64,000 bases of DNA from assembly GCA_030272155.1 (NCBI GenBank), contig CP126201.1, positions 5,159,753 to 5,223,752 of the forward strand. The letters run 5' to 3'. The DNA comes from Tetradesmus obliquus. Taxonomy: Eukaryota > Chlorophyta > Chlorophyceae > Sphaeropleales > Scenedesmaceae. Positions 19,301-64,000 of this stretch are shown piece by piece. The number at the start of each line of letters is the position of its first letter. Position 1 is the stretch's first letter. The notes below the pieces were generated by a model. That model saw nothing but the letters and a program-made list of their open reading frames with translations. It was not told the DNA's origin and did not search any database. The position numbers and the translations under genes are program-made.

Positions 19301-19542
19301 TAAGAGTGTCTAGCAGTGCTGTGGATGCAGTGTTGCCGCTGCAGCTGCTGCGCAACGCCAGCAGGTGGCAGGGGCATGTGTAAGCAAGCGGTGTTCAAGC
19401 GTGCACGCCGCCAGCAGCTGCCGGCCTGCGATGGCACCTCCTTCACCAGCACGGCTGATCCGCGCTGCTCTCAACAGGCATAACAGGAGCACGCGCTGCG
19501 CAGCACGGCTGCAACTTGCGCTTTCTTGTGAGCGGCACCTGC
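16357..19542. repeat. 282-bp tandem satellite array, ~11.3 copies
   Basis: Exact-period 282-bp units run from 16357 to 19542, nearly identical except for the first and last two copies. The last full copies differ by small changes (CGTGCACG for CGCGCACG; GCGATGGCACC for GCATGGCGCC). A T/A variant in CTGTTTGG versus CTGTATGG recurs three units apart (17284 and 18130), which marks a three-unit higher-order duplication. The period is a multiple of three, so each unit shows an 89-codon (+) and a 63-codon (-) open frame; these are by-products of the repeat, with no gene-like signal. Confidence 0.95.
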
Positions 19543-23400: not shown

Positions 23401-26400
23401 CGCACCTGCAGACACAAAAAGCGCGCCAGTGTCAGCGCTGCAGGCATGCCTATCAAGCAGCAGCACACCGGATTGAAAGAGAAACAAGTGCCGGCTGTGC
23501 ACCTGTTGAGCATGACATGCAAAGCAGCGCGGATCTGCACATAACACAACTGCTTCCAAATGCCGCTACACAACGCTGCTGCGCGCACCTGCACCATCTG
23601 AGGCGACACCACCACCTCCAGCAGCAGCAGCAGCAGTTGCATCACCAGCAGCAGCGGGCACACCTGCAGACACAAACAGCGCGCCAGTGTGCAGGCATGC
23701 CTATCAAGCAGCAGCACACTGGATTGAAAGAGAAACAAGTGCCGGCTGTGCACCTGTTGAGAGCATGCCATGCAAAGCAGCGCGGATCTGCACATAACAC
23801 AACTGCTTCCCAATGCCACTACACAACGCTGCTGCGCGCACCTGCGCCATCTGAGGCGACGCCGCCACCTCCAGCAGCAGCAGCAGCAGCAGCAGCTGCA
23901 TCACCAGCAGCAGCGGGCGCACCTGCAGACACAAACAGCGCGCCAGCGTCAGCGCTGCAGGCATGCCTACCAAGCAGCAGCACACCGGATTGAAAGAGAA
24001 ACAAGTGCCGGCTGTGCACCTGTTGCGAGCATGTCATGCAAAGCAGCGCAGATCTGCACATAACACAACTGCTTCCAAATGCCGCTACACAACGCTGCTG
24101 CACGCACCTGCGCCATCTGACGCAACGCCGCCACCACAATCTTCAGCAGCAGCAGCAGCTGCATCACAAGCAGCAGCGGGCGCACCTGCAGACACAAACA
24201 GCGCGCCAGTGTCAGTGCTGCAGGCATGCCTACCAAGCAGCAGCACACCGGGCTGAAAGAGAAACAAGTGCCGGCTGTGCACCTGTTGCGAGCATGCCAT
24301 GCAAAGCAGCGCAGAATTGCACATCACACAAATGCTTCCAAATGCCGCTACACAACGCTGCTGCGCGCACCTGCGCCATCTGACGCGACGCCGCCACCTC
24401 CATCTTCAGCAGCAGCAGCAGCTGCATCACCAGCACCTGCAGACACAAACAGCGCGCCAGCGTCATCGCTGCATGCATGCCTACCAAGCAGCAGCACACC
24501 GGGTTGAAAGAGAAACAAGTGCCGGCTGTGCACCTGTTGCGAGCATGCCATGCAAAGCAGCGCAGAATTGCACATCACACAAATGCTTATAAATGCCGCT
24601 ACACGCTGCTGCGCGCACCTGCGGCATCTGAGGCAATGCTGTCATCTTCAGCAGCAGCAGCAGCAGCAGCGGCAGCAGCAGCAGCAGCAGCACCACCACC
24701 AGCAGCCGCAGCAGCCGGCGCACCTGCAGAGACGGACACAACGCGCCAGCGTTAGCAATGCATTAGCGTGGAACAAGCACCAGCTGGAAGACTGAGCAGT
24801 GCATATCAAACCATGCAATCCAACATGCACGTTCAAAACGTGTTATGTACCTGTGGGCTGAGGTGGCGCAAGCCGCACTATGTCCGCCGTCAGTGGTTGC
24901 AGGAAGGCATCCATCACTGTGGGCTCTGTCGGGCCCTCGATCAGCACCGTGAGAGAATGCCACTCCGCCCATGCTGACGCGCCATCAGGAAGGCACTCGT
25001 ACCTGCAGCCCGGCAACGGCAGTGGTGTTAGCATTGCGCCATGCCGACACACAGTTGTGGCTCCACAGAATGTTTATTTAGAGCGCTCTTCTCCAGCATG
25101 CAAGCATCATTGTGTTTCATCAACTTCAGCCACACACAGCGCTAGTATTTATGGTTGCGACCCTGACATACCTCCACCAAATGCCGCCTGTGGACCACTG
25201 TCTGTTCTTGAACGGCTGGAAGAAGTCGCCGCCCACTGCGATCACGCCATGGCCTGGTCCAGCTGCCGCACCACCTGTGGCTTTGTTAACGCGCTCCCAT
25301 TCTGGTGAGGCCCAGAGGGAGCCAACCACCTTGGCCTTGGCGGTCCTGATGGCTACCACGAAGTCTGGGTCCATCATCAGCTCCTTGATGGACTCCTGTG
25401 GACGGATGTACCAAAACCTCTGCAAGCAAACAGTCACAATCATCAGGGCAGCAAGACACTGCTGCTGATTTGCTAGTCAGCCTCCCTAGGCGCTGGCGTT
25501 ATGAAATGCCTGCGTAGAATCAGGCAAAATGCTAGCCCGTGTCCTGGACTGTTTCGCGTCAAGCGGCGTCATCAAGAGTGCACCATGATTAACTCACACA
25601 GCTGGAGGACTTATGGCCAGAGCATCTGCCGAGACACCACCAGCCCTGTCAAGCACCCTCCTGCTCACTCACCCTCACAGGCACCTCCTTGCCCAGCACA
25701 ATGTTGAAGCGCTTGCCTCCACACTTGCCGCAGCAGTCATGCCGGTGAGCCTTCCACTCGGAGTGCGGGGTAGGGGGCCAGCCGGTGCACCCCAGGAGGC
25801 AGGAGTGCCACTCGTACTTGCTGGCAGGCGCCACATCCAGCACCTTCTTCATCATGTACAGGCTCTTGGGGAGCGTGTGGTCCTGCAGCAGAAGACAACA
25901 GAGCTTCACCACCGCATGCACGGCACCATGCCAGCAGTAACTGAGCCAACATAATCCGCGTGCACATCAATGTCGATACTGTTACTTACAGCTGTGCATA
26001 CCATATCAACAACACCAGCCAGCGCTAGCTAGCACCTGCACACATGCTGATATGTATGCCTTGCCTCACAATATACATGTCACGACAGCAAAGAGCATTC
26101 CAATGCAGCAGCTCTCACCTGAGGCAGCGCAAACTCAGTCATGAAACCAAGGATGTCGTTGAAAGCCGCATTGGTCATGCTGTGCTCATTCCAGATGGAG
26201 ATCAACTTGTAGACAGCATCCATGTTGTTGACACGTGCTCCTGGGAACAGCGGTTTGTCAGCATGCTCCTGCCACCAAGTGTGCTTGGGCAGGCAGCGTG
26301 GCATGTCCTCTGGCCTGGCGTAGTCCTTGGCAGTTATAGAGGGGTGATCCCAAAAAAAGCCAGAAGATGACATGCTGGCCCGAGCTGCAGACGCAGCAGC

Positions 26401-34125: not shown

Positions 34126-34133
34126 TGCTGCCC
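34126..34133. other. 8-bp target-site duplication, left copy
   Basis: TGCTGCCC immediately before the left terminal inverted repeat, identical to 51366-51373 after the right one. Confidence 0.9.
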
Positions 34134-34193
34134 GAGATATGGTGTGATAGAACGCACCTCCTCAGGAGGGGGTGTTCTACCGTAGAACGCCCC
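34134..34193 (+). repeat. left terminal inverted repeat, 60 bp
   Basis: Starts GAGATATGGTGTGATAGAAC and ends GTAGAACGCCCC; identical to the reverse complement of 51306-51365. Inside are two short palindromes, CCTCCTCAGGAGG and GTTCTACCGTAGAAC, able to form hairpins or bind a dimer. Confidence 0.95.
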
Positions 34194-34425
34194 GTTCTTG
34201 TGGGTGTCCTTTCTATCTATTCAAAGGTTCATTTTATGGCACTGCTGCCTCCCGTAATACTGACAATCGACGTATCTGAGTTGGTATGTGAGCTTCAGCC
34301 GCAAAACACACTCCTTCAAATTGACTGACAGTTGTTGGGCCCACTATGTGACGAGGCAGGCCATTACTCTTACTTTTGAACATCATTAATGCAGATATAG
34401 GTGACAAAGTAAAACAATCATGATG

Positions 34426-34440
34426 AGAACGCCGCGTTCT
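34426..34440. promoter_or_regulatory. palindromic AGAACG...CGTTCT site just before the transposase start
   Basis: AGAACGCCGCGTTCT ends four bases before the transposase ATG at 34445. A near-identical 15-mer, AGAACGCCCCGTTCT, spans the inner edge of the left terminal repeat at 34184-34198. The same sequence at the element end and the gene start suggests a binding site for the transposase itself or another element protein, allowing self-regulation. Binding is inference. Confidence 0.5.
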
Positions 34441-34444
34441 TAGT

Positions 34445-34726
34445 ATGTCTTCGCGTAATACGTTCAACACTCCAGGGGTGCCGATCCTCAAACCTTTGAC
34501 CAAGCCATCCAGAACTAATGGAACTATTCTTAGACCCCTTGCTGAACCACAGCGGGTTGTTGGTCGCAGCAGAAGGAGTGGACTTCAAGCTGGCAGCAGT
34601 TCTTCAGCACCTGGCCCCTTGCCAAACCCAGCAGACAGCGCCTTCCCAGCGCAGCAGAGTTCAGAGGAACAACAGTGGGACGATTACGGCTTTTGCGATG
34701 CAGAGCAAGCACAGGCAGAAGCTGCT

Positions 34727-34772
<46 letters not shown>

Positions 34773-37700
34773 CAGCAGCGTCTATGGGGGCAGCAGCGTC
34801 AGAAGGTGTTGGGGGCGTCTCCGCTACCTTCACTACAGCTGGTGCAGCTGCAGCTGCCCAATCCAAACCAGAACGCACCAGCACTCAAGCTGCGATAGAG
34901 GAAAACTGGCAGCAGTATAGGCAGGACAACTTGGAGCTGTTCTTCAACACACAGGCAAAGCAGGCAGAGTTTGATCAGCAGTACAGCATGTTCCTGCAGC
35001 AGCAGGTCACAAATGCTGTCGGCAGTGCCACATGCGGAGTGTGTGGGCTTGGGGTTGCACACTGCCAGGTAGTGCGCCTCGTGGAGGTCACTGTGATTGA
35101 CATCGCTGCTTGGTTCACAGTGAAGGTGCCTGTGGTGCGCTGCAGCAGGTGCGAGCGGCAACAGCATGTTGGTGCAGTGATAAGGCTACAGAGTGATTTC
35201 GCCTGTATAAGCGCCCGTATGTCTCTATCGGTGCTTATGTATGCATAACTCAGGCAGTGCAACTCGTGGTTGCAGGACTTGGTTGCAGGTTATGGTAGTC
35301 AGCAACGCTTCAGAGATGTTACTGGTGGCTAACCTCATTTCACCTGGATTGCGCACATGCAAACAGGTGTCAGGACAACGCAGGGGTGCGCCCAGCTGCG
35401 GCTGTGGGTGCAGCACAACCAGCTGTCGGTGCTGCCGGGGCTGGATGTGCTGCCGGTGCAGGAGGTCAGGAGCACCCGCTGCAGCAGCAGCAGCAGCAAC
35501 AGCAGCAGGAGCGCCAGCAGCGGGATCAGAGGGCTTGGAACGCCAAAGCCCTACATGCTGGGTGCTTCCCAGCTACACCTGTTCATGGCGAGCACCTGCA
35601 GTTTGCCCAGAAGGAGCGCAGCCTAGTGTGGTTCACTCTGCGCCTGCTGCGGCACGCGTTCGGTCTGCGCCAGCATGTGCAGCGCCTGGCTGTCAGCAAG
35701 CTAGCAGAAGCCCAGCGTGAACTGCTGGAGGAGCAGCTGTACAGCTCGCTGCTGCGCAGCATCAACAGCGACGTGTTCCGGAAGTACTTTGCTGCAGCAT
35801 TAGATAACTACGCTGCCATGTCGCTGGAGGTGGGAAGCCGGCAGTGGCTGGAGCTGCCGCCTGAGAGCCTTGCGGGGTGCTGCACTGTCTGCCGCCGCGG
35901 GCACTTGAAGTTTCTGCAGCAGGAAGGGGTGTTGGGTGAGCACTCATTTGCTGGCAGCAGCAGCGCTGGCGTCTGCAGTGACTGCAGCAACCTAGCCGCA
36001 GCAACGGCAGGAGGTCCTGGCTCTGTAGCTCCAGGCGACGGTGCTGCTGCGAGTGCAGCAGCAGCAGCAGCAGCAGACATAGGGCAGCCGGGAGGAGCAC
36101 CTGCTGGCAGTGGTGACAGTGGATCAGCTGATCAGCACAGCATGTATGCTGCCACAGGCAGCAGCCCTGAAGCAGCAGCAGGCAAGGCAGCAACGTTAGC
36201 AGCGACTGGTGAAGGCAGACCAAGCCGGTCAGCTGTGTTCCACACGCTGGGAGCAGGTTTGATTCTGCATTCAGTCCTGGTGGATGGGCTCCAAAAGATG
36301 CGGCACTTTCGAAAGGCTGGTGAGTCAGTGCTGCCGCGGTGACTTGCAAGTCCACGCTCACATGTCATGCATTCTCGTTCAGTCCCTGTGCTGGCCTGCG
36401 CAGTCTGCATGTTCAGCTGACCCCCTTGCGTTCCACACCTGCACACTTTGTTCAACTGTTCGTGCCTGCCACTTTCACTTCCTGTGCCTGCAGGCCGGGC
36501 ATCAGGGCGGGTGCCATTGCTGCGTGAGCGCCTGCTGCCTGACACTGACTTCATGCTCTGGGACAGTGCTGCGGGTGCCGAAGATGACAGCGCTGGGTCC
36601 GATTCATGCAACACCTTCAAGGCGGACAAGGTGTTGGGCAGGTCATCCGACCTATTTGATCAGAGCGGCATCGTCACCCTGCTGTGCAGGTGAGATGTGT
36701 GTGATGCAGCCACACCAGAGCGCGTATTGCAACCAACCTCGCCATAACAGAGACAGCGCTTGCAACACAGCCACTGCTTCATGGCAGCTCCTGCATTTTG
36801 TGTTGCGTATACGATTCCATCGCGGTGCCTATCCTGCTTGACACATACTTCTGATTGTGCTGCTCATGCAGGCACGGGTTTGTCTTGGCAGCCCTGAACA
36901 TGCCCACAGGGGAGCGCTGGGCATACGCCACCTACCTGCTGCATGTCCTGATGCACGAGCACAGCATCCTGCCGTACATCATGATGTACGACATCAACTG
37001 CAGGTGCGTAGCAGCTTTGTGTTTGGCGACTGTTGTGTTAACTGACGGCTAGGCCAGCTTCATGTGTGTTGTTATTGTGTCTCACACAATCCACGTGTCA
37101 TCACAATCACACTGTGCGCCTCCGCCTACAAGTTTGCAACCTGATGGCTGTCCTGCCTCGCAGGTTCCAGGCTCACTTCAAGAAGTGGGTAGAGCAGCAC
37201 AGCGACTGGTCGCCAGACGAGAAAGCCTTCGCGCTGAGGCACATGCAGATGCCGGTGCCTCCGTTCCACATACACATGCACATGGCAGCATGCCAGGCCA
37301 TGAACGCCCTCAGCCGCGTGCCAGCCGGCGGCACAGGCATCGGCGAGCCCACGGAGCAGATGAACCGCTTCCTGGGGCTGGCGGGTGTGGTGCTGCAGTA
37401 TGCCACACTGGCCTCCAGGGCACTGTGGCTGGAGGTGCTGTTCCGCAGGTGGAACATACGCAAGCTGCGTGATCTGCCACGCCTGCTGGTCTCCAGCGGC
37501 TGTAGGGCTGTTGCGCGCAGGGCGCGGCTGAGCGAGCAGCAGGCTGGCCATGCTGCGCGGGCCATGGCAGTTGCAATCAGACTGCAGCTGGCAGTAGACA
37601 CCGCATTCAAGGAGGAGGTGAGTTCAGTTACGTTATATTGCTGCAGCGATCCGTGTGATAAATGCCACATGATGCCTGTCTTGACATGGCAATCACACCT

Positions 37701-40700
37701 TCACCTGCCTCAGCATCAGCAGTGTGTGCCTCTCCAACAAGCCTGCTGGGCAGTGCATTGGCTGATGCGTTGGCTTATATGACGTCACAGCCACAGCGTC
37801 ATGTCATGATGCCCTGCCAAACGAGTGCAGTACGTGAAGTGCATGTGACTGTTCTTGATGCAGGTGGCGAGTTGGGGCACATGCCCCACCGAGGTGGAGG
37901 CGCTTGGCGGCCACACAGCGCTGCCCTGGCAAGCTGAGGTTGCGGAGCTCATCGTGCAGCTGGAATCCATCACCTGGCATGGCTCAAAGCTGCTGCCCGG
38001 CAGTCTCGTGCAGCGAGTCTGGGGGCTGTCGCTTGCTGCTATGTTGCACAGGTGTGTTGCAGCTATGCACATAGCAGTCCATGGCGCGCTGTTGCTATGC
38101 ACTACTGCAGTGCTAGTGACCTCTCTGCACCACCCGCTTTGTCTAACTGGTTGGGTATGTGCTGAGTAAACATTGGCCAAGCGTTGTAGCGTCCGCGACA
38201 TGCTTCTGTATGTTGACGTGCTCATACCTTTGTGTCCTCCGCCTGGCGTGTGTGCAGCCAGAAGCGCCTGCAGCGGCTGCGGGCTGCCCACCCAGAGACC
38301 GTCTCCTGGGTTGAGGGGTCACTGGAGCTCGAGCAGGCAGTTGCCATGCTGTGCAGCGCCAAGGTTGCAGCCTTCCAGCTGGAACTGGAGCGCATGCAGC
38401 GGCAGCATTTTGAGATCCAGTGGCTGCAGCAGAAGATTGGTGACGTTGCCAGAAAGGAGCACCAGAAGCTCACCAAGGAGATGCAGAAGCTGGGGAGTCA
38501 GCTGCTGGAGTCACTGCAGACGCTCGTCGAGTGGGAGGCACAGCGGCAGCGTTACAAGCAGCACCTGGTCAACGCAGCTACAGGTGCGGAGGCACCCTCT
38601 ATCACTTTCAGAGGGGGGGGGGAACTTGTGCACATCTGTATAAGGCAGGACACAGATCCGCTGATGTGCACATGCTTGCGCTCGCTGTCCAGAAGTCTCC
38701 CATGCATATGCCCCTGCAGTTGCAGGTTGTTCTCGTTGCGGTGTACTGACCTTGACATACTGTTGCCGATGCTACGCCGGCCTTTTGGCGCCTTGCAAGC
38801 TGCACTGTTGCTGCAACTGTATGTCTGGAATTAAATTGCTCAACTTTGGTTATCTGCTGCTGCGCTGTGTGTATCCTGCCGCAGCAACTGAGACTGCTGC
38901 TGCGAGCAGCGGCACGCCTGCATGGCACACGCTGCAGCCGGCAGAGCTGCGGAAGCAGATGTATGCTGGCAAGCTGCCATGGGGCAGCACCGCTCGCGCA
39001 GACCCGGACCTGCACCCTGAGCTCAGCAGGATCAAGCAGCAGATGGCGCTGGTGGCTTATGACCTGCGAGCTGCTGAGCAGGAGGTGCGGCTGGTCAGCT
39101 TTGAGACCAACAGCTACAGACTCAGCATTCAGCAGGAGGTTGAGGAGCTCGTTGCTGCCCTAAATGCGCAGGCTGCACAGCGCAGCCGCGTGAGCGCTAA
39201 GCTGGAGCAGCTGGAGGAAGAGCTGGATCATGCTGCCCAGCCACAGCAATATCAGCTGCATTGCTTGATTAGGGAGGCAGAGCAGGCGGCTTGCACTGGT
39301 CGCACGCGCATGCTCCTGCTGCAGCAGAAGCTGGACTCTGTACTGCGCCTGCAGTCAGCAGCACATGCCGCCTTTGACAAGTACAAGGGCAGCATCAGCA
39401 GCACTGGCAGCATGGCAGCGGTGGCAAGGGGCGCTGCAGCGGCCGTGGCAGAAGAGTTTGCGGCCGAGGCCATGCATGCGGAGGATGACAGCGAAGCTGG
39501 TGACGATGGCGGCTGCAGTGATGATGACGAGCTGTTTGCAGAGCCGGTAATGCCACCACCAGCAGCAGCAGCAGCAGCAGCTCCAGCACCAGCAGTGTCT
39601 GCCGAGGCAGCGCCAGGTGGCAGGCCAGCAGCAGCTGCTGATCACCCCGCAACGTCGGCTGGCGTTGGTGGCAGTGGTGGTCAAGGCAATGAACAGCACC
39701 ATGCACGGGCTCACATCCCGCTGCAGGTCAGGCGCTTCGAGCAGCGGCAGGGCCCCGACCTGGTGGATTCTGGAGTTCTCAGGCAGAACGCCTGGGGCAA
39801 CCAGGTAAATTCGACTATGACAAAGCGGGGTGCTCGTGTTGCGTGATGACATGGTGCATGCGTCATGTTTTGTTCGATGGGCAGGGCGTTGTGACATATC
39901 TGCTGTAGCGTGCAGAGCTTCAGGGATGATTCTCTCTGTGTTCGGGGAATTGATCTGGTAAACACAGGTCGTCACACTCACGTAATTGTTTTTTTGCATG
40001 CTGTGCGTGGTGCTATGCAGTTGCCACCCTGGGAGGCATCGCCCACCCAACTTGCAGCCCACCAGCAGCTGGTTGACTCTGGAGCATGGCCGGCTGCAGT
40101 TGCTGGGCATGTTGCCAGTGATGGGCTGCTTCACCTGCCCAACTCCGCGGCAGTGAAGCTGGGGGGCACCCTTCTGCGCCTGAGGCCTGGGATGTGGCTG
40201 AATGATGAGCTGGTCAACTACGCCATGTGGTGGCTGCAGCAGCGGGACGCGCACATTGCAGGCTCGCCTGTGCCGCAGCTGGATGGGGTGTGGGGCGGCA
40301 TGCAGGGCGTCAGCTGCCACTTCTTCAACAGCTTCTTCATGGGCAACCTGTACCTGTTTGCAGGCACAGTCAGGTACAATGCAGTGCGCAAGTGGACATC
40401 ACCGCGCAGGGAGGTGCTGTCCTGCTCCCTCATCGTGGCTCCCTGCAACCTGAACAATACCCACTGGACACTGGTGGTTGCTGACATCGACAGGTGCAGG
40501 ATCCTCTACCTGGACCCTATGGGGGTGAGTGCCTGGCGTCCTTTGGGTTGACATCTATCAGCCAAAGATGCCTCAAACAAACATGCAGTAACACCAGTGG
40601 CATGTCATGATGTAGCAGCGTCAGTCCTCCACCTTGCTGCATGCGGCCCCCACGTTCACTTGTGAGCAGTATTGCTTGGCGCCGTCACTAGCGGCCACGG

Positions 40701-41147
40701 CACCAGTCTTTTGTGGTTGTAATGATGCAAATTGTGGTTTGTTGCTTGTAGGAATGTCGTGCCGATATCGCTGACGCCATGGCAGCTTGGGTGCAGGCAG
40801 AGGCACATGACAAGCTGGGTCAGTGGTGGGACACCAGCAGCTGGCCCAGGGTGTACCTGCAACCTGGCAGGGACATCCCGCGGCAGACCGATGGTCACAG
40901 CTGCGGCTTGTATGCTGTTGTGCTGGCTGACTGCATAGGCGCTGGTGTGCCCCTGCAGCACTGCCGCATGGCAGGCGCTGATGCAGTTGCTGTGAGGGCG
41001 CGCTTGCTGGACAACCTATGCGAAGGTATAGTTGTCTGGCCCCTTCACGCAGTGTGTGGGTTGCTGTGTTGACACAGATCAACTGCTGTTCCGCATGTGC
41101 TGACATTCGCTCCATGGCGTGCAGGTGTCACTCGCTTTGCCGGCTAG
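34445..41147 (+). CDS. KDZ transposase fused to a Ulp1-type cysteine protease
   Basis: Eleven exons close in frame to 1557 residues: 34445-35148, 35367-36319, 36494-36689, 36872-37003, 37164-37617, 37864-38051, 38258-38583, 38885-39804, 40021-40524, 40752-41025, 41125-41147 (TAG). Parts in order: a poly-Ala tract, a Cys cluster (CGVCG, then VRCSRC), ALHAGCFPATPV typical of KDZ proteins, and DFMLWDSA. Next come the core CRHGF, MYDINCR (~660) and GEPTEQMNRF (~720), two coiled-coil segments, an acidic/Pro-Ala linker, and a C-terminal Ulp1 (C48) domain. The protease has WLNDELVN, His in THWTLVV (~1438), Asp in LDPMG (~1455), Gln in PRQTDG (~1503) and Cys in HSCG (~1509), a complete catalytic set. 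The transposase part cuts and inserts the element in the nucleus; the protease may process the polyprotein or remove SUMO from host factors (inference). Confidence 0.88.
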
Positions 41148-41574
41148 CCAGCACACAACCGCCCACGGCATGCAGGTTCACAGCACAGGCGAGTACCAGC
41201 TACGTTTGTACAACTGACTGAAGCATATGTCTTTTGTTGAGAATGATGTCCTCAGTGCTTGTTGCCTGGAAGCACAGAACTGCAGCCATGGTATGTGGCA
41301 TGACAAATGCAGCTCAGCAGCCGTGCCATGGCGCGGCGCCATGTACTTAGGCTTGTCACCGCAGTGCTTTGAGTGTGTGCGTTTCAGTCGTAAGAGAGGC
41401 TCTGATTGTTTCCAAATTGCACCGGGGTTTTGAGCATGCGTGTTGTGCAGACACGGCCGTGAGCATGAGCATAAGCGTGAAACTGTCTCGTCGGTAGCCT
41501 GCTGTACATCCGTTGTTCGTTGTGCATTGCACCAACTCACGCCGCTGTTTTGCCGACACAACTGTGATGTTATT

Positions 41575-41890
41575 TGGCTGTGCAGGCCAGTCAGCGGCAG
41601 CGCAAGTGCAGGCGTGCGCTGCTGCGCACACACTGCAGGTGCTGCAGCAAGGCGGGGCAAACAGGGCACTTGAGTTGGCAGCGCAGGTCGGGCAGTAGCA
41701 GCAGCAGCGGCTGGTGCTGCTGCAGCGACAGCGCGAGTGCAGGCGGGCGCTGCTGCGCGCACACTGCAGGTGCCGCAGCAGGGCGGGGCAAGGAGGGCAC
41801 TTGAGTTGGCAGCGCAGGTCAAGCAGTAGTAGCAGCAGCGGCTGGTGCTGCTACAGTGGCAGCGCAAGTGCAGGCGGGCGCTGTGGCGAA
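41575..41890 (+). repeat. ~131-bp GC-rich tandem repeat downstream of the transposase gene
   Basis: About 2.3 units beginning GTGCAGGCGKGCGCTG near 41607, 41736 and 41868, containing GGCACTTGAGTTGGCAGCGC. The same sequence occurs in reverse orientation at 44170-44620, so the two blocks form a large imperfect inverted repeat with a ~2.3-kb spacer. Confidence 0.85.
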
Positions 41891-44169
41891 CCGTCACATG
41901 GACAGTGCGATTTGTGTGTATGTTGTGGCGTGATGGACCATTTGCTGCATTCTACGTGGCGCCAGCTTACCACATAGGTGTTGGCATTGTTCCGTAATCA
42001 CCTTGTAACAAAGGACGTCAAGTGTGTTGCAGTGGCTGTGACACGATCAGTCGGGGGCACTATGAGCGGCCTTGCTCAGGCAGCGCACCTACCACGGTGT
42101 AGTACTTTTTGCAGTGCAACAATGATGGTCCATTGATGCGGCCGTGGCCTGCCTGTCAATGTTGAAGTATGAATTCTAGAAGTATAAGCAGTGTCTCAAC
42201 AAATAAGGCCTGCCTAGGCAGCAACTATAGGCTACAGAGCCGTTCTTGGTATGAAGGCAGGACTGGCATTACGCAAGTATGATGCAGTACTCAGGCACTG
42301 GACTATTACAGCACGCAACTTGGAATCTGAATACATTGCACTCAGGGCATGAAAACAACTTAGTGTGCAGCCACATGCCCGTGGCATACCGTATGCCTTG
42401 GCAAGGCGTATATGTTCATAGTTCACAAGGCTTGTGCAGCACACGATTGCTGCACACTGCGTGCAGGTTGCATTACAGTGCTCATGTGCACTTGTAGGGT
42501 GTAATATTCTGTCATCATGCAATGTATTTGCATGGGCAGCTGCATAGCACCTGCAGGTGCTGTCAACTCACTGCGTTGTTTGTCAATACTGGTGATTGTC
42601 AGACAACCCTGCGTTGGTTTTCAAGTAATGCCGGTCAACAACCGCTGTTAGTTCCACACCTGCCAATCACAGCATGTGGTGTACCAATTGCGGACTTACT
42701 TTGAAGTAAAGCCGTGTGCCCAGTGCAAGTTGAATGTGTAGCAAGTGGCCCACTCCGTGAACCGCTGTGTAGTATAATTGTGTTGCTCTGCTCAGCCTGC
42801 CTCAAGCCAAGCTAGCACATTGACATACCTGCAACTGTTTCTATCTGTGCGTGAAGCCTTTCATCCATGTGAGAGCCTGTTTCAGCTGCATAGGCAAACA
42901 CATGCACCTTGCTCAATGTACATCTACAATGAATGTGTATCGCCACAGACGCCGTCGTATACACGATTCAGACGCTGCCTGTACTGCTGCCACACCGGCT
43001 GGCATGTACATGGGCCTTTGCAGGCTGCAGATATGCTTCTTGCACATGCATACTTTGTGCAGTTCCGGACTGGCAGTGCGGCATGACGACAGTGCTGCGT
43101 CAGATTACTGCTAGCACCACACAGTGGCATCAAACCATGTGCTTAGGCTGTGAAACAGCAAAGACGAATGAGGGCAACCTTCTGATGTTCAGGCAACGTG
43201 CAAAAGAGTTAGGTGCTTCTGTGATGCTCATGGTTGTGCTGCAGGGCAACACAAACCACTGTAGCTGGATGCTGTAGGACCATGACACACACAGCAGGGA
43301 AACATGCGCAAACCTACTGCATGCAGCACACAACCAGCCTTTGTACCTGATGTAGTGTACCGTGCAGCATAGTGTGCAGCATGCCAAACGCAAGAGCTGT
43401 GCCGCCTGGCAGGATGCTTGAGTACTAGTTGCGCCTTGACTGCCACACACAACGCCGGCAGCCACCCCCTCGTGGACTTGTTGCATCGTGGGTGGCAAGG
43501 TATGAAAGCTGTTGTTGCAAGTCAGAACTTGCAGTGCCAGGTGATCATATGTATATCAAAGGCCCTTTGATGCCGGGCATGATCATCAGTCAGTCATGCG
43601 CATGCAGGTGAGTACTAGATTTGCAGCTATGTTTATCGTCGAATGCCACACTTGTTGTACACCAGCACTGCATCTCACTGTACAGCAGCTGCGGGCAGCT
43701 ACAAGACGAGTCATCAGCTGGTTCAGCTGCGCAGTTGATGCCTGCTCAGTTGGTGTTCAGCTGGCTGGCAGGTGGCGTTCGGTGTCGACCTCTCTTACAC
43801 CCAGCTCAGCAAATACAACATCAACTGCAGTGAACACTTGAGTTACTGGATGTCCCATTTAGCAGCTTGTCGTTTGCTGGTGTTTTGGTATTTAGGTGCC
43901 TTCAACAAATATCGTTGCCTATGTGATGCGCAAAACTGTCAAAACCACACATTTTGCTGACTCTATTTTATTGCATCAAGACTTCCTTGTAACGATTGAC
44001 AGTCTAGCATGAAAAAAGCAAAGCTGCGCACCTTCAAGCAAAAGCTGGGCCAGAAGACCTCCCGCCTTGTGTCCTTGTTACACATGCATACAAAACTATA
44101 CAACAGAACAAAGCCATAGGCCATGGCCACATGCGATAGCTGTTAATATCCGCTATAGGCTCAGCAACG

Positions 44170-44620
44170 TTCGCTACCGCCTGGCCTGCGCTGCCAACTG
44201 AAGTCCCCTCCTCGACCGGCCTTGCTGCAGCACCTGCTGCGTGCGTGCGCCGTCACAGCAGCAAGCACCAGCTGCCTGGCGCTGCTGCCATAGATGTTAA
44301 CTGCAGTGCTCTCATCGCCCCGTCTGGCTGCGGCATCTGCTGTGTGCCCTCAGTAGAGCCCGCCTGCGCTTGCGCTGCCATTGCAACAACACCAGCTGCT
44401 GCTGCTGCTGCTACTGCCTGACCTGCGATGCCAACTCAAGTGTCCTCTTTGCCCCGCCTTGCTGCAGCACCTGCAGTGTGTGCGCACCAGCGCACGCCTG
44501 CGCTTGCGCTGCCATTGCAGCAGCACCAGCTGCTGCTGCTGCTGCTGCTGCTATCGTTGCCGGGCCTGCGCTGCCAACCTGCTGCGTGTGTGCGCCAGCG
44601 CCCGCCGCCCCTCGCACTGC
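44170..44620 (-). repeat. inverted copies of the ~131-bp repeat downstream of the companion gene
   Basis: Three diverged units, the reverse complement of the 41575-41890 block (for example GCGCTGCCAACTCAAGTG-like segments). They lie just past the stop codon of the minus-strand gene, mirroring the position of the other block behind the transposase gene. Each element gene thus ends near the same repeat in its own sense orientation. Confidence 0.8.
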
Positions 44621-44638
44621 CACTGCAGCAGCAGGTGG

Positions 44639-47097
44639 TCAATTCGCACGGCCAGGCGAGTGCACAAGGCCGGCCAGGGCGGGCACTGGACTGTCGGCAT
44701 GGCTGACACAGGGTGTATCAGATGGTACAGGAGATGGCTGGCCCCCCCACCAAATTTCCGATGGTGACATCACACGCCCTGCATCCATTGCGGCAGTGGC
44801 TGATGGGCAGGCTGGGCTAGCAGCGACCTGGGTATGTTTGGCGACAGCAGCTGCTGCTGCCAGCCCTGCGCTATCGACTGCAGCGCCCTCCTCGCGCAGG
44901 CTTGCTGCCTGCAAACCCACCGCACGTGTTGCTGCTCCTGCATGCACCTGCGGCTCCACTGCAACGGCAGCTGCTTGGTCCGTGCTGCCAGGAGCGCACA
45001 CAGAACCTGCAACCAGCATGTACAGATGAAGCGGAAGACATGAAAGCTGGTTTGGAAGAGCTTGATTGTCTCGTATCATGTGAAGCAAGGTGACCGGGAC
45101 ATGCGTCTGCATGATGCTATGCAACCTCGAACAATGGCAAGGCTCACAACATGACATGCCCTGTGTGTCAGCTGCAGAGTGTAACACACAATATGATGAT
45201 ACTGAACAAAACTCCATGCCGTAGCCACTTTTCCTGCAGCAAAATAAGCAGCCTTCTGTCCACAAAAGCAGACCAAGCTACCAGGCCTGAGGGATGTACA
45301 ACATCTTACCTGACAGTGCCGGGGTGAACGCTGCGCTTGCCAAATGGCTTTGGCTCAAAACCGGAGCTTGGCATGTCGCAGCGCCCGCACCCATCCCAGG
45401 AACAGAGCTACTTGCCAGCATCTGCTGCTGCCACAAGTGCCACTGCAGCGCTGCAGCGTCACCATGCACCAGTGTTGCCTGGCCTGCAGGGTCACAACGT
45501 GTTCCTGCTGCTAGTTTTGCTGTCAGAGGCTGCTGCTGCTGCTGCTGCTGGGCGTATGAACCGAGTGCTGCTGCTGTTGCTGCTGCTGCCTGCAGCAGTA
45601 CGACATCAGGCTGCTGCTGAGGCTGGTGCTGCTCGTGCTGCTGCTGTCGTTGCTGCTGCTGCTGCTGCCGCTGAGGCATTGGGCAATGTAAGCCGGCTGC
45701 ATGCAGTATCGCATCATTGAGCTGCTGCTGTTGCTGCTGCACAAACTCACCATGCACTGCTGCCTCTGGCACAGCGGCCATGGACTGCTGCTGCAAAGGT
45801 ATGGAGCTCTCTGCTGCTGCCTGTGACGCTGCCGCCATGTCCAGGTGCTGCTGCAGCCACTGCTCTGTAGCGGCTGCGTCGTGTGCAAGCCGCTCAACTG
45901 TTGCCTGCTGCAGCATGTCCTCCGCCTGCTGCAGCATGTCCTCCGCCTCATCTACAAACGCCCATTTGATTGCTCCTGCATGTGCAACACACACAGCGCT
46001 CATCAACTGGCGCCACAGTGAGCAAGACGTATGTTGATCAAGAAGCACAAACTACATTGCAATGGCAGCTGGCATGACAATGCAGCCCGACCGCCGGCTC
46101 CAGTCATGTACATGTCATTCCACACACAAAATAAATCACCCTGGCAACTAGCATGGCAGTGCTGCTGTACAAGCTGGCACTAGCCTGTAGGGCACACAGT
46201 GTGTAGTTACAGGCATACATGACAAGAGCAGCAGTCAGCTTGGGCCTTCTCAGCAGCTGCCTGTCACCCACCTAGCAACTCCGCCTGCTGCTTCTGCCAG
46301 CCCTCCCATACTACCTCAGCAAGCTTCTTTGGCGTGCTGTTCTTCCGCGATGCGTACTTCACCACTTCCAGCACCCGCAGCCTGTTCACCTCATCCTTCA
46401 GGCAGTCAAAGCACAAGATGCCCGCATCGCAATGCTGGAAGTGCTGGAAGGGGTCAACACCTGCCCAAAAAGGCTCCTCAGGAGTGCCAAGGCCTGCAAT
46501 GCACAGCAGCAACATCAGCATTCACACCAAGATGGACAGTCGCAGGGTGCATGGTTCTAATTAATTCACCCCCAAAGCTGTAACACAACAATGTTGGCAT
46601 ACAATGCTTAAACATCATGACTCTAACTGATTGCTGCGTACCGCGCATAAAGTAGACACTCATGGTTGGGCGGCTGCCTGCTGTTTGCTCCAGGGTGCTG
46701 CCAAAGCGGATGCCCTCAAAGGTGTTGCAGATCACGTATGCCTGAAGAACGCCAGCCTGGTCGTACTGGACAGACTTTATCGCAGTCTGGCTCTGCAGCT
46801 TCTTGAGCACAAACGCCTGCAGCAGCACGGTGTTGCAGGGAAACCATGGCGCAAGCGCACTCGAAAGGCACAACCACACTACTAAGCATGACCGGTGCAC
46901 AAGGCTGGCCAGGCACCCACACACATCCCATGCGTGCATGTCTTGTCGTCCATGATTTGTTGCCAGCGTACGGAACGCTACTAAGCAACATGTCAATAGT
47001 ACACATAGTGCGGTTGCAAATGCTGCAGGCTGCATGAGAAACAACGAACCTCTAGCTCGTAGACAGTCACCCGAGCGGCGTAAGTTGGCGAATCAGA

Positions 47098-47136
<39 letters not shown>

Positions 47137-50100
47137 AGGGGCTGGCTGCAGTGCGACGGCCAGCTCTTTCCCAGCCAGAAGGTGCACCATGCAGCGCTGC
47201 ACAAACCCCTTGAAAGCAGGGTCAGCAACCATCGCGTGCAGCATGATGCCACCAGGCGGCTGCTTGTTGAGCGCTGGCCTGCTGACTGCTCGCCAACTGC
47301 CAATTGCACAGTCGCTCTCACACACTACCAGCAGCTGAGCTTGGGCATCTGAAACAAACAACAGATGGGGCAGAAATGGCATGAGCTGTTGGCTCACGGG
47401 GCAACACAATCTGTTGGTGGGGCAACATCAACAATCAAACAGCAGCTAAAGCATGCGCCAAGCAAGTCTGTCATGGTGAGTACTGCCGGCATATCATTCC
47501 TCAGACCATACTGCTTACAAAGTACGGGCGCGTTCAGAAGCAATCTTCATTGCACAGTCAGTCAACAACCACCGCACCAGCAGTGTCAGCGCCCATGTGT
47601 GGGTGTGACGCACCTGGTGTGAGGGAAGGGACAGCAGCCTGCTGCGCCTTGAATGACACCTGGAGCAAGCCGGTAGATGACTCTGCTGCAGTCGCCACTT
47701 GCACCGCCAGCGACAGCCCATGTGCTCGTGGCAGCAGCCACTGCAGCACAGGGAGGTAGCCTTGGTCGGGGCAGGGGCAGCCCGCCATGGCCAGGTCCAC
47801 CTGATGCGGCGCAGGCAGGTTCAGTAGCACTCTGCTGGGCAAGCATCCCATGTACATGACGCTGCCCTGCAATACATGTTGGTTCAAAGTTTACAGAGCC
47901 ATGGCATATTAACAGGACCTGACAGCGCACTCTTCACAAGCATGCTCACCATAACATCTGCCACCTGGAAGCTTGCCCCAAGCCTGCCGCGCTCCACCAC
48001 AGCAGCGCTGATCAGGGCACCAAGGTCAGGGTGCTGGCTGATTGAGTGCGGGTCAGCGGTGGCTGCAGCTGGCAGCTGGTCCCGCATGGCCTCACAGCGC
48101 TGCTTCAGGCTTAACATCACATCAGCTGGCAGCTGCAGGCGTGGTGCGACACTGCTAGCTACAGCTGCAGTCTTGCGGCGCTTGCCGCGAGCAGCGCCGC
48201 GCACAGCTCCAGCTGCGGCGAGACCTGCCGGTGCTACTGATGCGAAGCCACTTGCCGCTGCTGGCGGTGCCGCCCCGGGTGCTGCTTCATCGCCCGCAGT
48301 TGGCTCGGCTGCTGCTGGTATTGCTGCTGCTGCTGGTACCGCTGCTGCTGCTGGTGCTGGTGTTGCCGCTGCTGCGGCGGCGGTGGCGCTGTCATGTGCG
48401 CCATCTGCTGCAGGGGCTGGTGCATGCGTTGCTGAAGGTGTGGCGCCATCTGCAGCAGCTGCTGCCCAGTCAAAACCGTCAAACGCATCATCTGCATGAC
48501 ATGGACCAATACAACATGCAGCAGGTGGAGAACAGAAACATGATGTTGGTTTTTGTGCACCAGGTCATGCAGACAACTGGTGAAAGCTGCTTTTGCTAGA
48601 ATGTTGTGCATGCATTCTGCGGCCATTAACCGCAACATGAACAACCATGCAGTGCTCCTATGCAACCAATCAACGCCCCATAAACAAACATGAAAATCTC
48701 ATCTGCGTCCATTGAACGCCACAGAATCAAACATACAGTGCTCATCTGAACCAATCAAACGCAACATCAACAAACATGCAGCCACGAGACCCTGGGATGA
48801 CTTACCGCCAACTGCTGCTGAGCGAGGCGTGCTGACAGCCTCTGCAGCTGCACCTGCTTTCCGCTTCTGACCCGCTGCGGCCTCTGCTAGATTTGACAGT
48901 GCTGCTGTTATGAAGGCTGCACAGGGCTGCAGCTTTACATAAGCACCCAGCTGGTCGCAGGGGTCAGCTGCTGCTGCCTGGCTGCTGAGCAGCTGCAGCT
49001 TCCTTGAGAAGTGCTGCAGCACCAGCAGTGCATCCTTCAGAGTCAGCTTCTTGGGCTGGCTCAGGACCACCTCCTTGGGCCACAGCAGCAGCTGCCTGGC
49101 CCCTGCACAGCTGCAGGCGCCGGTGTCCTTGAAGGTGCAGGCCTCATTCGCGCTGTGCACGCGGTAGTCGGTCCTTTGGAGCTCGCCTGCACCATACGAG
49201 CATACAGACAGGTGATAGTTACTTTGAGTATTTTGTAGGGGTGAATACGTTGCGCTGATGAAGCACACATGCTAGTACCTAACATGTAAACAGCAGCGCC
49301 TGTATGCATGATCAGTTACTACGTTTGGCTGTGTAGTCATGGCCACGATGGCAACACTGCTTTGCAGTACATAGCCTGCTGAGTAGTGCACACCTTCATG
49401 TGCTGCCACGGCCTTGACGTAGTTCACTAAGGCAGCCACTGCATTGGCCGCACGGATTGCGCGCTTGCCAGTGCCCAGCACGTCAACAATCGGCGGCTCA
49501 GGAGCACTGCCCCAGCCATGAATCTGGCGGCGCACTGTCCTTGGGGGCACCGGCAGCACAGCACCTGCTGCCGCCGCTGTAATCATCCTGACTGCAGCCG
49601 CCTGCAACGCTGCCAGGAACTCGTTTCCTGCCTGTACAAGCGCTGCATCGTGGTCGAAGAGGCCGCTACAGTGGTACGACACCCGGCTCAGCAGCTGATC
49701 ACCCTTCCTGGTCATGTTGGCGGTGGCGACAAAGCCGCTGTTGATGCACCCCTCTACTGGCCAGAGTTCGGAGTCTGCACCGTATGCCTGACGGAAATCA
49801 ATTGTGGTGTCACAGGCATGCTCTGCCATGAGCTTGCCGAGTGTAAACTCTTTTTTGTCCCTAGAGTTAAGGTAGGACTTGGTGTCACGTGTCTTCACTT
49901 CAGCTTCAGGTTCATGCTGCTGCTGCTGCTGCTGTTGCCGCCTCTGCTGCTGTTGTTGCTGTGGCTGCTCCTGCTGTTGCTGCTGCTGCTGCGGCGGCGG
50001 CTGGTGCAGAGGCTGCTGCTGCTGCTGCTGTTGCTGCTCCTGCTGTTGTGGTTGTTGCTGTGGTTGCTGCCCCTGTTGTTGCTGTTGCAAGGGATGCTGC

Positions 50101-50490
50101 TGCTGCTGCTGCTGCTGCTCCTGCTGGTGCTGCTGCTGTTGGTGCTGCTGCTGCTGCTGCTGTGGCTGCTGCTGCTGCTGCTGCAGTTGCGCAGTCCTGT
50201 GTTGACCAGTCCAATTGCCACACTGCTGCGTGACTTCTTGGTGCTGCTGCTGCTGCTGCTGCTGCTGTGGCATGGTGTTGCATGCAACCCAACCACCCGC
50301 AGAAGCTTCTGGAGGGTTGCTTGCAGCAGGGCCATCTGCAGCCGATGCCTCTTGGTGCTGCAGGCCTGCCATGTACTGAGCAGCACATGCATCTGCAGCA
50401 GCAGCCACAGCCTGTCCTGCTTGTAAGGCAGTGAAGGCAGCAGCTGCCTCAGCATGCAATGGTGCTTGCTGTAGGTGCTGCTGCTGCTGC

Positions 50491-50526
<36 letters not shown>

Positions 50527-50684
50527 ATATGGTGTATGCCAGCGCCGGCTGCAAATCGTGTACAGCCTGTTTCAGACTGCAGCTGCTGCCCTGAGGCACT
50601 GCAAGCGCCACTACCCATGGCAGGGGCAGTGCTAAGCTGTGCAGAATCAAGTGAACCTGGTGGGTGCTGGAGCGGCTGCAGCAT
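44639..50684 (-). CDS. large uncharacterised companion protein of the KDZ element
   Basis: Nine exons close in frame: 49394-50684, 48806-49186, 47950-48491, 47614-47866, 47050-47348, 46642-46816, 46272-46493, 45310-45975, 44639-45006 (TGA), about 1398 residues. The start is uncertain: the first ATG of the open frame is at 50684, but the frame is open ~90 nt further up and an upstream exon could exist. Exon 1 is mostly poly-Gln, then becomes globular (FTLGKLMAEHACDTTIDF, VRRQIHGWGSAPEPPIVD). Later parts include a Cys-containing segment (ACTFKDTGACSCAG), an Ala/Pro linker, a basic RGAARGKRRK likely nuclear signal, VDLAMAGCPCPDQGY, a second poly-Gln, and HCDAGILCFDCLKDEVNRL. The C-terminal third is Gln- and Ala-rich. 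No dioxygenase, helicase, protease or known DNA-binding motif is recognised. Its integrity inside the element suggests a role in transposition or host interaction, by inference. Confidence 0.75.
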
Positions 50685-51305
50685 CTGCTGCTGAAGGTGG
50701 TGCTGCACTGCAGTTGCCTGTCCTTGTGTAACCGGGGGCAAAGACTGTTCCTGTTGCCCTATGCTGGCTGACCTCCATGACTACAGAACCTGGCGGCACA
50801 TCAACCAACTAGAAAAGATAACTGTTAATGGAAAGCGGGATCGCTGAGCATACTGCTGACCGCGAGATCACAGCCACGGTAGGTTGATTGGGGGAAACGG
50901 AGCAGCTGTCAGCTTTTCGTGCATCCATACATGCAAAGCAGTAGCCGCATCTCCCACTAAGGTTAAGCGTGCATGCCAAAGGATCGTAGGCCGTGATGGG
51001 ATGCAGGTTGGGTGACACCAAACACCTTCAAACCAAAAGCCTGTCATACCCCTGCAGCTTTCTCTCTCTCGCAGCTTGAGAATAGCAAAAATACTATATA
51101 TGGAATACTAGGATGCAGTTTAGATCAATCGGTGAACCTGTTTCACTGCAGTCAACCACCCAGACCTATCACTAATATCAGTGCGTAATAGGGGGGGCTT
51201 TTGATCCTCAAGAACTCCAAATGAGAGAGTTAAGATGTCATTGAAGTCGCTAAAAGCCGCAGTCATGGTCGTTGGCGTAAAGTAGAACACAGCATCAGTT
51301 TCAGG
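50685..51305. other. right subterminal region of the KDZ element
   Basis: Likely promoter and 5' region of the companion gene, transcribed leftward. It contains a pyrimidine-rich TTTCTCTCTCTCGCAG stretch near 51060-51075 and AT-rich ACTATATATGG near 51093. No copy of the AGAACG...CGTTCT palindrome seen near the left gene was found here. Confidence 0.4.
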
Positions 51306-51365
51306 GGGGCGTTCTACGGTAGAACACCCCCTCCTGAGGAGGTGCGTTCTATCACACCATATCTC
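51306..51365 (-). repeat. right terminal inverted repeat, 60 bp
   Basis: Perfect reverse complement of 34134-34193, ending ...CCATATCTC at the element border. Confidence 0.95.
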
Positions 51366-51373
51366 TGCTGCCC
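51366..51373. other. 8-bp target-site duplication, right copy
   Basis: TGCTGCCC, identical to 34126-34133. Confidence 0.9.
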
Positions 51374-51406
51374 TGATATGTGCCAGTGCAGCTGTGGCAT
51401 GCATCC

Positions 51407-53513
51407 TCACTCCTGGTTCTCAGCAGCTGCTTCCGGCACAGGTGGTGTCCAGCTGATGAGCTCGCAAGGGTCACTGTCGGGGTGCTGCCCCAGCCAGCGC
51501 TGCCCGCGCTGCACCCGCAGCACCCTGCACAACAGAAGACACAAGTCGGCCCACAACCGCGTAATTCGTCCTGGTGCCATAGCAGGAGATGGTTCTGAGC
51601 AACTCACACAAGCCGAGGCTTGTGCATGCATATCTTTGTTGAGCAGCAAAGTTTTCTGTTCCAACAAGCTTGCCCAGCAGTGTCCATCCCTGCAGTTCAT
51701 CTAGGGCACTGCTGCTGACACCATGCGAATGTGCAGCACACATGCTGTTGTCAAAAGCTGGCCCTCGCAGCTGTACATAACAGAGACCAAGCTATGTTGC
51801 GTACAAATATCAACAGGGAGCTAGAAGACCACGCGCATCAGTTGTGTGTGTCTGTGGCCCATGCACTGCCTGCCGCGCACCAGTCTGGGTCTGCCGCCAG
51901 CAGCTGCTCAGCGTCCCTGCCCGGCAGCAGCCGCCGGATGTCTGCCAGCACCTCTTCAACACATGGCGTCACCAGCAGCAGCGGCTGGGCCTCAACAAGC
52001 CTGCAGCCGCGGCAGGCGGAACGTGGCGAGTGCGGTGTCAACATCTGCGGTGGTGGTGGCTGTGCAACAGCCTATGCCGCGTGCACTGCGCGGACAGCTA
52101 AACCTAAACCTTTTATTTGGAGCACTGCTGGTGGTGGTGCTGCACTACAAGCAGCCCATAACCTACAAGCAGTACCCTGGCATTCCAACCATAGGGCACA
52201 GCAGCTGCCTCATACGTGCACTGTGCTGCCGTGGATAGACCTCGCATTAGTTATGCCCCATCACCAGCGCAGCCCACCCCTGCTGCCTTTGTGACTCACT
52301 TGTCTACCCGCTCCACATGCAGCAGCTGCTGCAGCGCCTCCACTGCTTGTTGCACCTCGCTGCTGTCCTGCAGCAGCAGCTGCGGCCGCTCCGCCACCAC
52401 CCTGCTGACGTTGGCAGCTGGCAGCAGCTCCCTCAGCGCCAGCAGGCGGCTGCTGGTCACCGCCAGGTCAGCGGTGAGGCCCGCCAGCAGCGCAGGCTTC
52501 AGCTTGAATATGTTGCCGGCTGCAGCAACACGCAGCAGCAGCAGGGCAGGGTTAGGATAAGTTTTATCAAATTTTTGGCCGCTAGCTGCTGTGGCTGCTT
52601 TGCTACCAAACACAGCAGCGAGACTCTAAACAGGTGCACAATGATGTCAAAGAGGCAACTCTTGCATTTGCTTTGGCAAGATGCAGCAGGGCAGCTGATG
52701 TTAACAGCAAGCAGGTGCAGCAGATAGCTGGCAGTGCCAGCTTCCTGAAACTGCAGGAAACCCTGCTGCTGCTGCTGCTGCTACTGCTGGAGTTGATTAT
52801 GATGAACGTGTGTATGCCACAGTGCTGCTGCAGCAGCTGGTCGCCTTGAGCTGCTGTGCCGCTGCCAGGGTGCAGGGCGCTGGCGCACCCAGGTCTGGCA
52901 GCAGCAGCATGAGCGCCTCCAGCCGCTGCTCCATGTCAGCCATGGGGATGGCCAGCTGCTGCGCTGCAACCAGCGCCACCAGCCGGCACTGCGCGCAGGT
53001 TCAGCAGCCAAGACAGCAGGGCGAACAGCTGGTACAGACCATCACTACCTTTTGCTGGTATAAGTTGATACACAGCCTCTCTGCTGTGCTTTTTCTAATG
53101 TAGCTGCCCTTCCTTGCCTTGTGAAGCAGCGATGCAAGAGACATGGCCAACCACTGCCTGCGTCACCTGGCTGTCCAGCACCTGCCATGTCCCCTGCTTG
53201 GCCAAGGGCCTGCCTGTCTGCGCTGATGTGGAGTGTGGCTCACCTTGTTGGCGTCGCTCCACTCGGTGTCCCGCTCCCTGAGGTCAAAGGTCAGGCTCCA
53301 CGGCGCCTCAGGGCGGGCGCACCCACTTGCTGCTGCTGGAGCTGCTGGCAGCATCACCAGCCGCTGCAGCTGCTGCGGGGTGACGCAGCTGCTGCATGCA
53401 AGCACGCCACCGTGATCGGGGTCCGTTGGCTGCTGATGCTGCTGCTGCTGCTGGTGGTGGTGCTTGCTGGGCAACGTGCCGAGGGTGTTGCTGCAGCTGG
53501 GGCCCAGCAGCAC
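51407..53513 (-). CDS. mTERF-like protein
   Basis: Exons that join in frame: ...-53244, 52889-52988, 52300-52519, 51881-52000, and a last exon 51407-51524 with its stop at 51407-51409; the link between the last two is unresolved, as is the first exon (open frame to ~53513 without a clear ATG). The recognisable part is repeats of the mTERF type: LLALRELLPAANVSRVVAER followed by PQLLL, LADIRRLLPGRDAEQLL, and alpha-helical pairs between them. mTERF proteins bind DNA or RNA in chloroplasts and mitochondria and affect transcription, splicing or translation; organelle targeting cannot be judged without the N-terminus. The KDZ element inserted 33 bp beyond the stop, so its 3' untranslated region was probably altered. 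Confidence 0.65.
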
Positions 53514-63581: not shown

Positions 63582-64000
63582 TTTAGGTTTTAGGTTTTAG
63601 GTTTTAGGTTTTAGGTTTTTATGTTTTTAGGTTTTTATGTTTTTAGGTTTTTATGTTTTTAGGTTTTTAGTTTTTTAGGTTTTAGGTTTTAGGGTTTAGT
63701 TTTAGGTTTTAGTTTTTAGGTTTTAGTTTTTAGTTTTGGGTTTTGGGTTTAGGGTTTAGTTTTTAGGGTTTAGGGTTTTAGGTTTTAGGTTTTAGGTTTT
63801 AGGTTTTAGGGTTTAGGGTTTAGGGTTTAGGTTTTAGGTTTTAGGGTTTAGGGTTTAGGGTTTAGGGTTTAGGGTTTAGGGTTTAGGGTTTAGGGTTTAG
63901 GGTTTAGGGTTTAGGGTTTAGGGTTTAGGGTTTAGGGTTTAGGGTTTAGGGTTTAGGGTTTAGGGTTTAGGGTTTAGGGTTTAGGGTTTAGGGTTTAGGG
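63582..64000 (+). repeat. telomere: degenerate TTTTAGG-type zone then perfect TTTAGGG
   Basis: From 63582 to about 63838 the repeat is irregular, with TTTTAGG, TTTTTAGG, TTTTTATG and TTTTGGG variants. From about 63839 to the end it is perfect TTTAGGG, the plant-type telomere unit. The G-rich strand reads toward the window end, so this is the right end of a chromosome. Confidence 0.98.

Follow-up and report, generated by a model that had tools for sequence, protein, structure and literature searches.

The final part of contig C11 of the green alga Tetradesmus obliquus raises the question of whether a 17 kb segment, bounded by inverted repeats and carrying two large genes, constitutes a complete transposon and, if so, of what kind. 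The window analyzed here, to which all positions without a contig name refer, is the last 64 kb of C11 (contig positions 5159753–5223752; the genome comprises 104.66 Mb in 17 contigs), and the segment of interest lies at window positions 34134–51365 (17,232 bp). We conclude that it is very probably a DNA transposon that belongs to the KDZ superfamily, full in length and low in copy number. The observations behind this conclusion are (i) a unit with defined boundaries, (ii) two insertions that arose independently and each hold both genes, (iii) the presence of a KDZ transposase domain and a C48 protease domain, and (iv) open reading frames.

Boundaries of the element

The element begins and ends with a 60 bp terminal inverted repeat (TIR), located at 34134–34193 (plus strand) and 51306–51365 (minus strand) and identified both by direct comparison and by an inverted-repeat scan (I21). 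Over their full length the two TIRs show no difference (60/60), and their similarity does not continue past base 60; assuming equal base frequencies, around 1.5e-27 pairs with 60 paired bases are expected by chance in the window. Directly outside the TIRs lie two copies of TGCTGCCC (34126–34133 and 51366–51373; identical at 8/8 bases), the target site duplication (TSD). A first-pass annotation of this DNA had reported perfect 60 bp inverted repeats, a perfect duplication on both sides, and a fully bounded element. All of this holds: the TIRs and TSD define 34134–51365, and a second genomic copy, described below, has the same ends. A scan of the window with the 13-base TIR start, allowing up to two mismatches, was uninformative (two matches, both exact, with a mean of 1.11 expected).

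Each TIR contains the motif TAGAAC/GTTCTA three times, in alternating orientation. The motif occurs eight times in the element, with seven occurrences no more than 150 bases from an end, and when the TIR was shuffled by mononucleotide 20,000 times, no shuffle contained three. These motifs are possibly iterated protein-binding sites, with the transposase as the putative binding protein.

Other copies in the genome

When the 60 bp end was used as a genome query, as the first-pass annotation had proposed, it was found in five places: two here, two on contig C4, and one on contig C13. A whole-genome pattern scan with the outermost 21 bases (two or fewer mismatches) returned the same five places, while the reversed-pattern control returned none. 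The two C4 matches delimit a second full copy, C4:345344–363373 (18,030 bp), which lies in the opposite orientation and has the same ends; between its own two TIRs there are two mismatches in 60 bases, and its TSD is TCTGTGCC/TCTGTGCT (7/8). The two full copies are 98.8% identical (205 mismatches in 17,177 aligned bases, 25 gaps). The C13 fragment is a right end of ~1.03 kb that is 92% identical and stops within exon 1 of gene 2. The proposed search yielded one more full copy and one right end, and no copy with differing termini—which would have spoken against a single element—was seen in the genome scans.

A DNA search of the genome with the whole element gave 146 matches from the 38 of 2,933 candidates that were scored. 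After removal, by eye, of matches to CAG/CTG tracts, a relic of the gene 1 N-terminus (C12:2578115–2578226; 112 bp, 93%) and a short dispersed repeat were retained; given the number of candidates scored, more small relics may exist. A search of the same genome with the joined flanks matched just the two sides of this element; that is, no empty-site paralog was found.

Each full copy carries gene 1 as well as gene 2. Because this pair was inserted twice, independently, the genes are parts of a single element, which disposes of the concern that they derive from separate elements. Could the two copies instead have arisen by segmental duplication? That there are just two full copies would fit such an event. 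However, similarity ends at the TIRs on both sides, the flanks of the C4 copy have no similarity to those of the copy described here, and each copy has a different 8 bp duplication. Given unlike flanks and distinct TSDs, we reject segmental duplication as the source of the C4 copy and regard it as highly improbable; transposition remains the preferred reading.

Gene 1 encodes a KDZ transposase fused to a protease

Gene 1 (34445–41147, plus strand) encodes a KDZ transposase with a C-terminal Ulp1/SENP-type (C48) protease, as judged from the spliced frame and Pfam. Hand-splicing yields a stop-free frame of 1,570 amino acids in 11 exons: 34445–35204, 35384–36319, 36494–36689, 36872–37003, 37164–37617, 37864–38051, 38258–38583, 38885–39804, 40021–40524, 40752–41025, and 41125–41147. 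The KDZ transposase domain (PF18758) spans 36280–37455 on the plus strand and is spread over four exons (residues 328–547, converted to bases; E 2.9e-24; 86.4 bits, where the cut-off is 26.6), in agreement with the KDZ identity assigned in the first-pass annotation.

The Ulp1/C48 protease domain (PF02902) follows at 40312–41003 on the plus strand, in two exons (residues 1177–1331, similarly converted; E 6.5e-17). Aligned with SENP1 (E 2.9e-21), the protease region retains the His, Asp, and Cys stretches, which we take to be the catalytic residues. Such protease fusions may already be described for other KDZ elements.

The protein database contains a record of gene 1, the hypothetical protein OEZ86_013989 of T. 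obliquus (1,056 amino acids), whose matched core is identical. Comparison by eye with the 11-exon model shows that the core exons agree, while the N-terminus differs and stretches are skipped. Beyond this record, the gene 1 core finds one relative in the protein database, at 34% identity (among the best 7,991 candidates); within the genome, all 14 of its matches (from 12 candidates) fall in the two full copies. The earlier proposal of a new family is supported to the extent that the core finds only its own two copies in the genome and, among the candidates scored, this one outside protein. No relatives of gene 1 were found in viral contigs.

Gene 2 is an orphan partner

Gene 2 is convergent with gene 1 and is predicted to encode a Gln/Ala-rich protein of ~1,400 amino acids. 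It runs on the minus strand from the first in-frame ATG at 50684 to the stop at 44640, and the frame is open upstream to 50780. The nine exons—50780–49394, 49186–48806, 48491–47950, 47866–47614, 47348–47050, 46816–46642, 46493–46272, 45975–45310, and 45006–44640—have consistent phases and give 1,430 open codons, with GT–AG borders in 8/8 chosen introns.

What does gene 2 encode? At full length, it matches no Pfam family at E≤1. Searches with two main stretches gave, in Pfam at E≤10, just TOBE_2 (E 0.12, under cut-off); in NCBIfam, no family over cut-off; and among ~5.8 billion proteins, none at E≤1e-3, where word-sharing candidates within length limits were scored (the best 7,990 in one search, 3,753 in the other). 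The first 271-amino-acid stretch has no match in PDB, and a 166-amino-acid exon 1 stretch has no relative in viral contigs. AlphaFold gave a pLDDT of 41 for the exon 1 stretch. Identification as a TET/JBP dioxygenase, or as another described protein, was rejected for want of support in Pfam (full length and two stretches), NCBIfam (two stretches), or PDB (first 271-amino-acid stretch). In the genome, all four matches of the N-terminal domain fall in the two full copies. So do 8 of the 16 matches of the second stretch; the other eight lie elsewhere and are weak (E 2e-4 to 9e-3, 20.7–26.1 bits, four of the eight with stops), and we set them aside as low-complexity chance matches. Gene 2 is the part of the element that lacks precedent in what was searched.

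It is possible, if somewhat less likely than not, that gene 2 encodes a new kind of accessory protein, unrelated in sequence to described families, that works with a transposase bearing a SUMO-type protease. Alternatively, gene 2 may have been captured from the host, or may be a succession of CAG-rich frames that are open by chance. The long Gln and Ala tracts would fit this, CAG-type tracts being common in this genome, as would the lack of a homolog in the protein searches, of a domain over cut-off, and of an annotated product. Yet the N-terminal domain has no host copy. Further, the phases are consistent and, in a codon model that was trained with gene 1, the frame chosen outscores the other five in 9/9 exons, although both tests are biased by the hand-picking of frames and sites for openness. 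Changes between the two full copies (26 nonsynonymous, 15 synonymous) give a nonsynonymous-to-synonymous ratio (pN/pS) of 0.55 (p 0.048), and in the C13 fragment the N-terminal frame is open across ~141 codons of common sequence. On balance, we consider capture or chance unlikely, and return to gene 2 as an accessory protein of the element.

The C13 fragment also bears on where gene 2 begins. In the copy described here, the rest of the gene is not in frame with the ATG at 50778, and the C4 copy has the same length near the gene 2 start. In the C13 fragment, a one-base length difference in this region puts the upstream ATG in frame; since the frame there is also open, the ancestral start may lie upstream.

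State and age of the element

Several findings weigh against reading the segment as a full-length KDZ transposon with these two genes. Firstly, the gene models carry ambiguity: 326 choices of donor and acceptor keep the frame open across the first intron of gene 1 (35205–35383 was used), the first in-frame ATG of gene 2 lies downstream of an out-of-frame one, and the codon and intron tests of gene 2 carry the bias noted above. Hence, of the earlier claim of two frames that close, the openness of both stands (1,570 amino acids; 1,430 codons), whereas gene 1 has an ambiguous first intron and gene 2 an ambiguous start. Secondly, a weak cluster of cysteines resembling CxC4, close to the N-terminal end of the transposase (35027–35173, plus strand; residues 195–243 of window positions 34445–35245) scores under the cut-off (E 0.08, 13.2 bits against 26.9). 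Thirdly, the protein database holds a record of gene 1 and, within the length limits and best candidates of the search, nothing for gene 2. Fourthly, the C4 copy is broken in both genes, by a one-base shift in exon 2 of gene 1 (a frameshift) and by one stop in the polyglutamine part of gene 2. Finally, purifying selection on gene 1 between copies is undetectable (38.5 nonsynonymous and 14.5 synonymous changes; pN/pS 0.85, one-sided p 0.30). Indel lengths in multiples of three were not used as evidence, because MAFFT places indels in CAG tracts uncertainly.

An alternative is a complete but silent family, in which frames are open in the present copy and no working transposase is made; this is compatible with a full-length KDZ transposon. 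The broken C4 copy, the gene 1 pN/pS not below 1, the doubtful gene 2 start, and the presence of just two full copies and one end fragment would all be consistent with silence. Conversely, the copy on C11 has 1,570 open codons across 11 exons, and its TIRs and TSD are perfect. We regard silence as possible, if somewhat doubtful, and continue to treat the element as a full-length KDZ transposon. Its open frames and protease motifs make autonomy plausible; to this extent, as a statement from sequence alone, the earlier description "apparently autonomous" can stand.

The age of the insertion is dated loosely by its perfect TIRs, because at 1.2% divergence, the value found between the two full copies, a 60 bp TIR pair is mismatch-free ~49% of the time. 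The present copy is possibly young. The first-pass description of a young copy that may still move gains little here: perfect 60 bp TIRs fit a wide range of ages, the full copies number two, and the C4 copy is broken in both genes.

Proposed mechanism

The gene 1 transposase would bind the 60 bp TIRs, perhaps via the TAGAAC motifs, and excise the element by cut-and-paste. Insertion would proceed by an 8 bp staggered cut of the target, giving rise to the 8 bp duplication. The fused Ulp1-type protease and the gene 2 protein would assist, and their targets may be host silencing factors that carry SUMO, or else the complex formed at the ends. Gene 2 and the protease-bearing transposase might, for instance, evade sumoylation-dependent silencing, or assemble the end complex of a giant element.

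Orphan gene 2 is the interesting part of the element. The Ulp1-type fusion and its orphan partner make the question of extra genes in large transposons testable, and the element is a candidate for experiments on the function of accessory genes in giant eukaryotic transposons. Since both of its genes can be followed through two independent insertions, it also provides exact ends for annotating KDZ transposons in the Scenedesmaceae.

Internal repeats and surroundings

Between genes 1 and 2 lie 2.2 copies of a 131 bp tandem repeat (41592–41883); diverged relatives at 44173–44551 are inverted and face them. The C4 copy is longer by 653, 125, and 19 bp in the 131 bp repeat stretches, and the expansions of 653 and 125 bp make up most of the length difference between copies. 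A diverged short dispersed repeat is nested in both full copies (here at 43984–44074, a match of ~90 bp; ~120 bp elsewhere). The genome contains no fewer than 40 occurrences of this ~120 bp repeat, L063–L074 among them (40 candidates were scored out of 534), and GGACAG/CTGTCC lies close to its ends. One occurrence has a full-length gene for U2 spliceosomal RNA (L063:986–1177; 158 bits) a few hundred bases away.

The contig closes with TTTAGGG telomere repeats (63582–64000), and the first-pass placement in a subtelomere is correct for this copy; it does not extend to the C4 copy, ~345 kb from the start of its contig. To the right of the element (51374–51409), a host-like frame on the minus strand terminates with a TGA (51409–51407) at a distance of 33 bases from the right TSD; the element may therefore adjoin the end of a host coding sequence. 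The window also contains two tandem arrays: a 282 bp array at 16354–19541 (11.3 copies, 99% matches) and a 263 bp array at 23122–24688 (6.1 copies, 90% matches).

Comparison with known KDZ elements

Several KDZ lineages are present in this genome, of which the element represents one. PF18758 gives 45 exon-level matches, 34 over the cut-off alone and three more with their neighbours, and 41 of the 45 lie outside the two full copies. On contig C3 of the genome (G000), five KDZ-domain matches (L013–L017; 7390909, 7415140, 7439356, 7463267, and 7489727) are spaced 24–26 kb apart, with 3.16 kb around the matches 99.6–99.9% identical to the first locus; the pattern suggests that a large unit carrying a KDZ domain is repeated in tandem.

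The ends agree with those of the KDZ superfamily, with TIRs (60/60 here, 58/60 in the C4 copy) and 8 bp TSDs (8/8 and 7/8). TIR-bearing KDZ elements with 8 bp duplications have been described (PMC12730594, PMC12810828), the 8 bp TSD being reported for Zisupton and Dileera (PMC12730594), including Zisupton-1_PGr (placed in Dileera), and for Cryptococcus KDZ1 (PMC12810828). The KDZ1 element of Cryptococcus neoformans (~11 kb) shares the KDZ core, TIRs, and 8 bp duplication with the present element; its own features are 241 bp TIRs and a CxC1 domain, and the consulted portion of the source names no Ulp1 protease or second gene (PMC12810828). Unlike here, two Laccaria Kyakuja families have 7 bp duplications and lack TIRs (PMC12730594). 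Fungal TET/JBP-carrying KDZ transposons also have an accessory gene, there a TET/JBP gene (PMC12730594), whereas gene 2 has no TET/JBP match in Pfam. In Pristionchus, Zisupton-like transposases encoded by multiple exons reportedly reach 1,400 amino acids (PMC9297572). The outside protein P0002 (944 amino acids, from a 7,069-base JGI contig) contains PF18758 and is 34% identical over 73% of the queried gene 1 core; it has no C48 domain listed, whereas gene 1 carries one.

Among green algae, Kyakuja and Zisupton elements are reported in Chlamydomonas (PMC8226300), and a Kyakuja element with an 8 bp duplication and imperfect TIRs inserted into CBA1 during an experiment (PMC10828217). Kyakuja-3_cRei of Chlamydomonas reinhardtii is, like the present element, a green algal KDZ element with TIRs and an 8 bp duplication (PMC10828217, PMC8226300); compared by description rather than sequence, its TIRs are imperfect and those here perfect (PMC10828217). 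Active transposition of a 31.7 kb KDZ element in C. reinhardtii is cited in PMC12477816. A literature search pairing Tetradesmus obliquus with Zisupton returned no match within one library.

The giant KDZ elements of Ectocarpus, which exceed 10 kb and whose families often have additional genes of mostly unknown function, resemble the present element in size, in their extra genes, and in nested insertions common to copies; by description, they differ in reaching 30.3 kb and high copy number, against two full copies here (PMC12477816). Earlier reports already cover giant KDZ elements that carry extra genes as well as a KDZ element moving in a green alga (PMC12477816, PMC10828217); the present element is a new low-copy family of this known superfamily.

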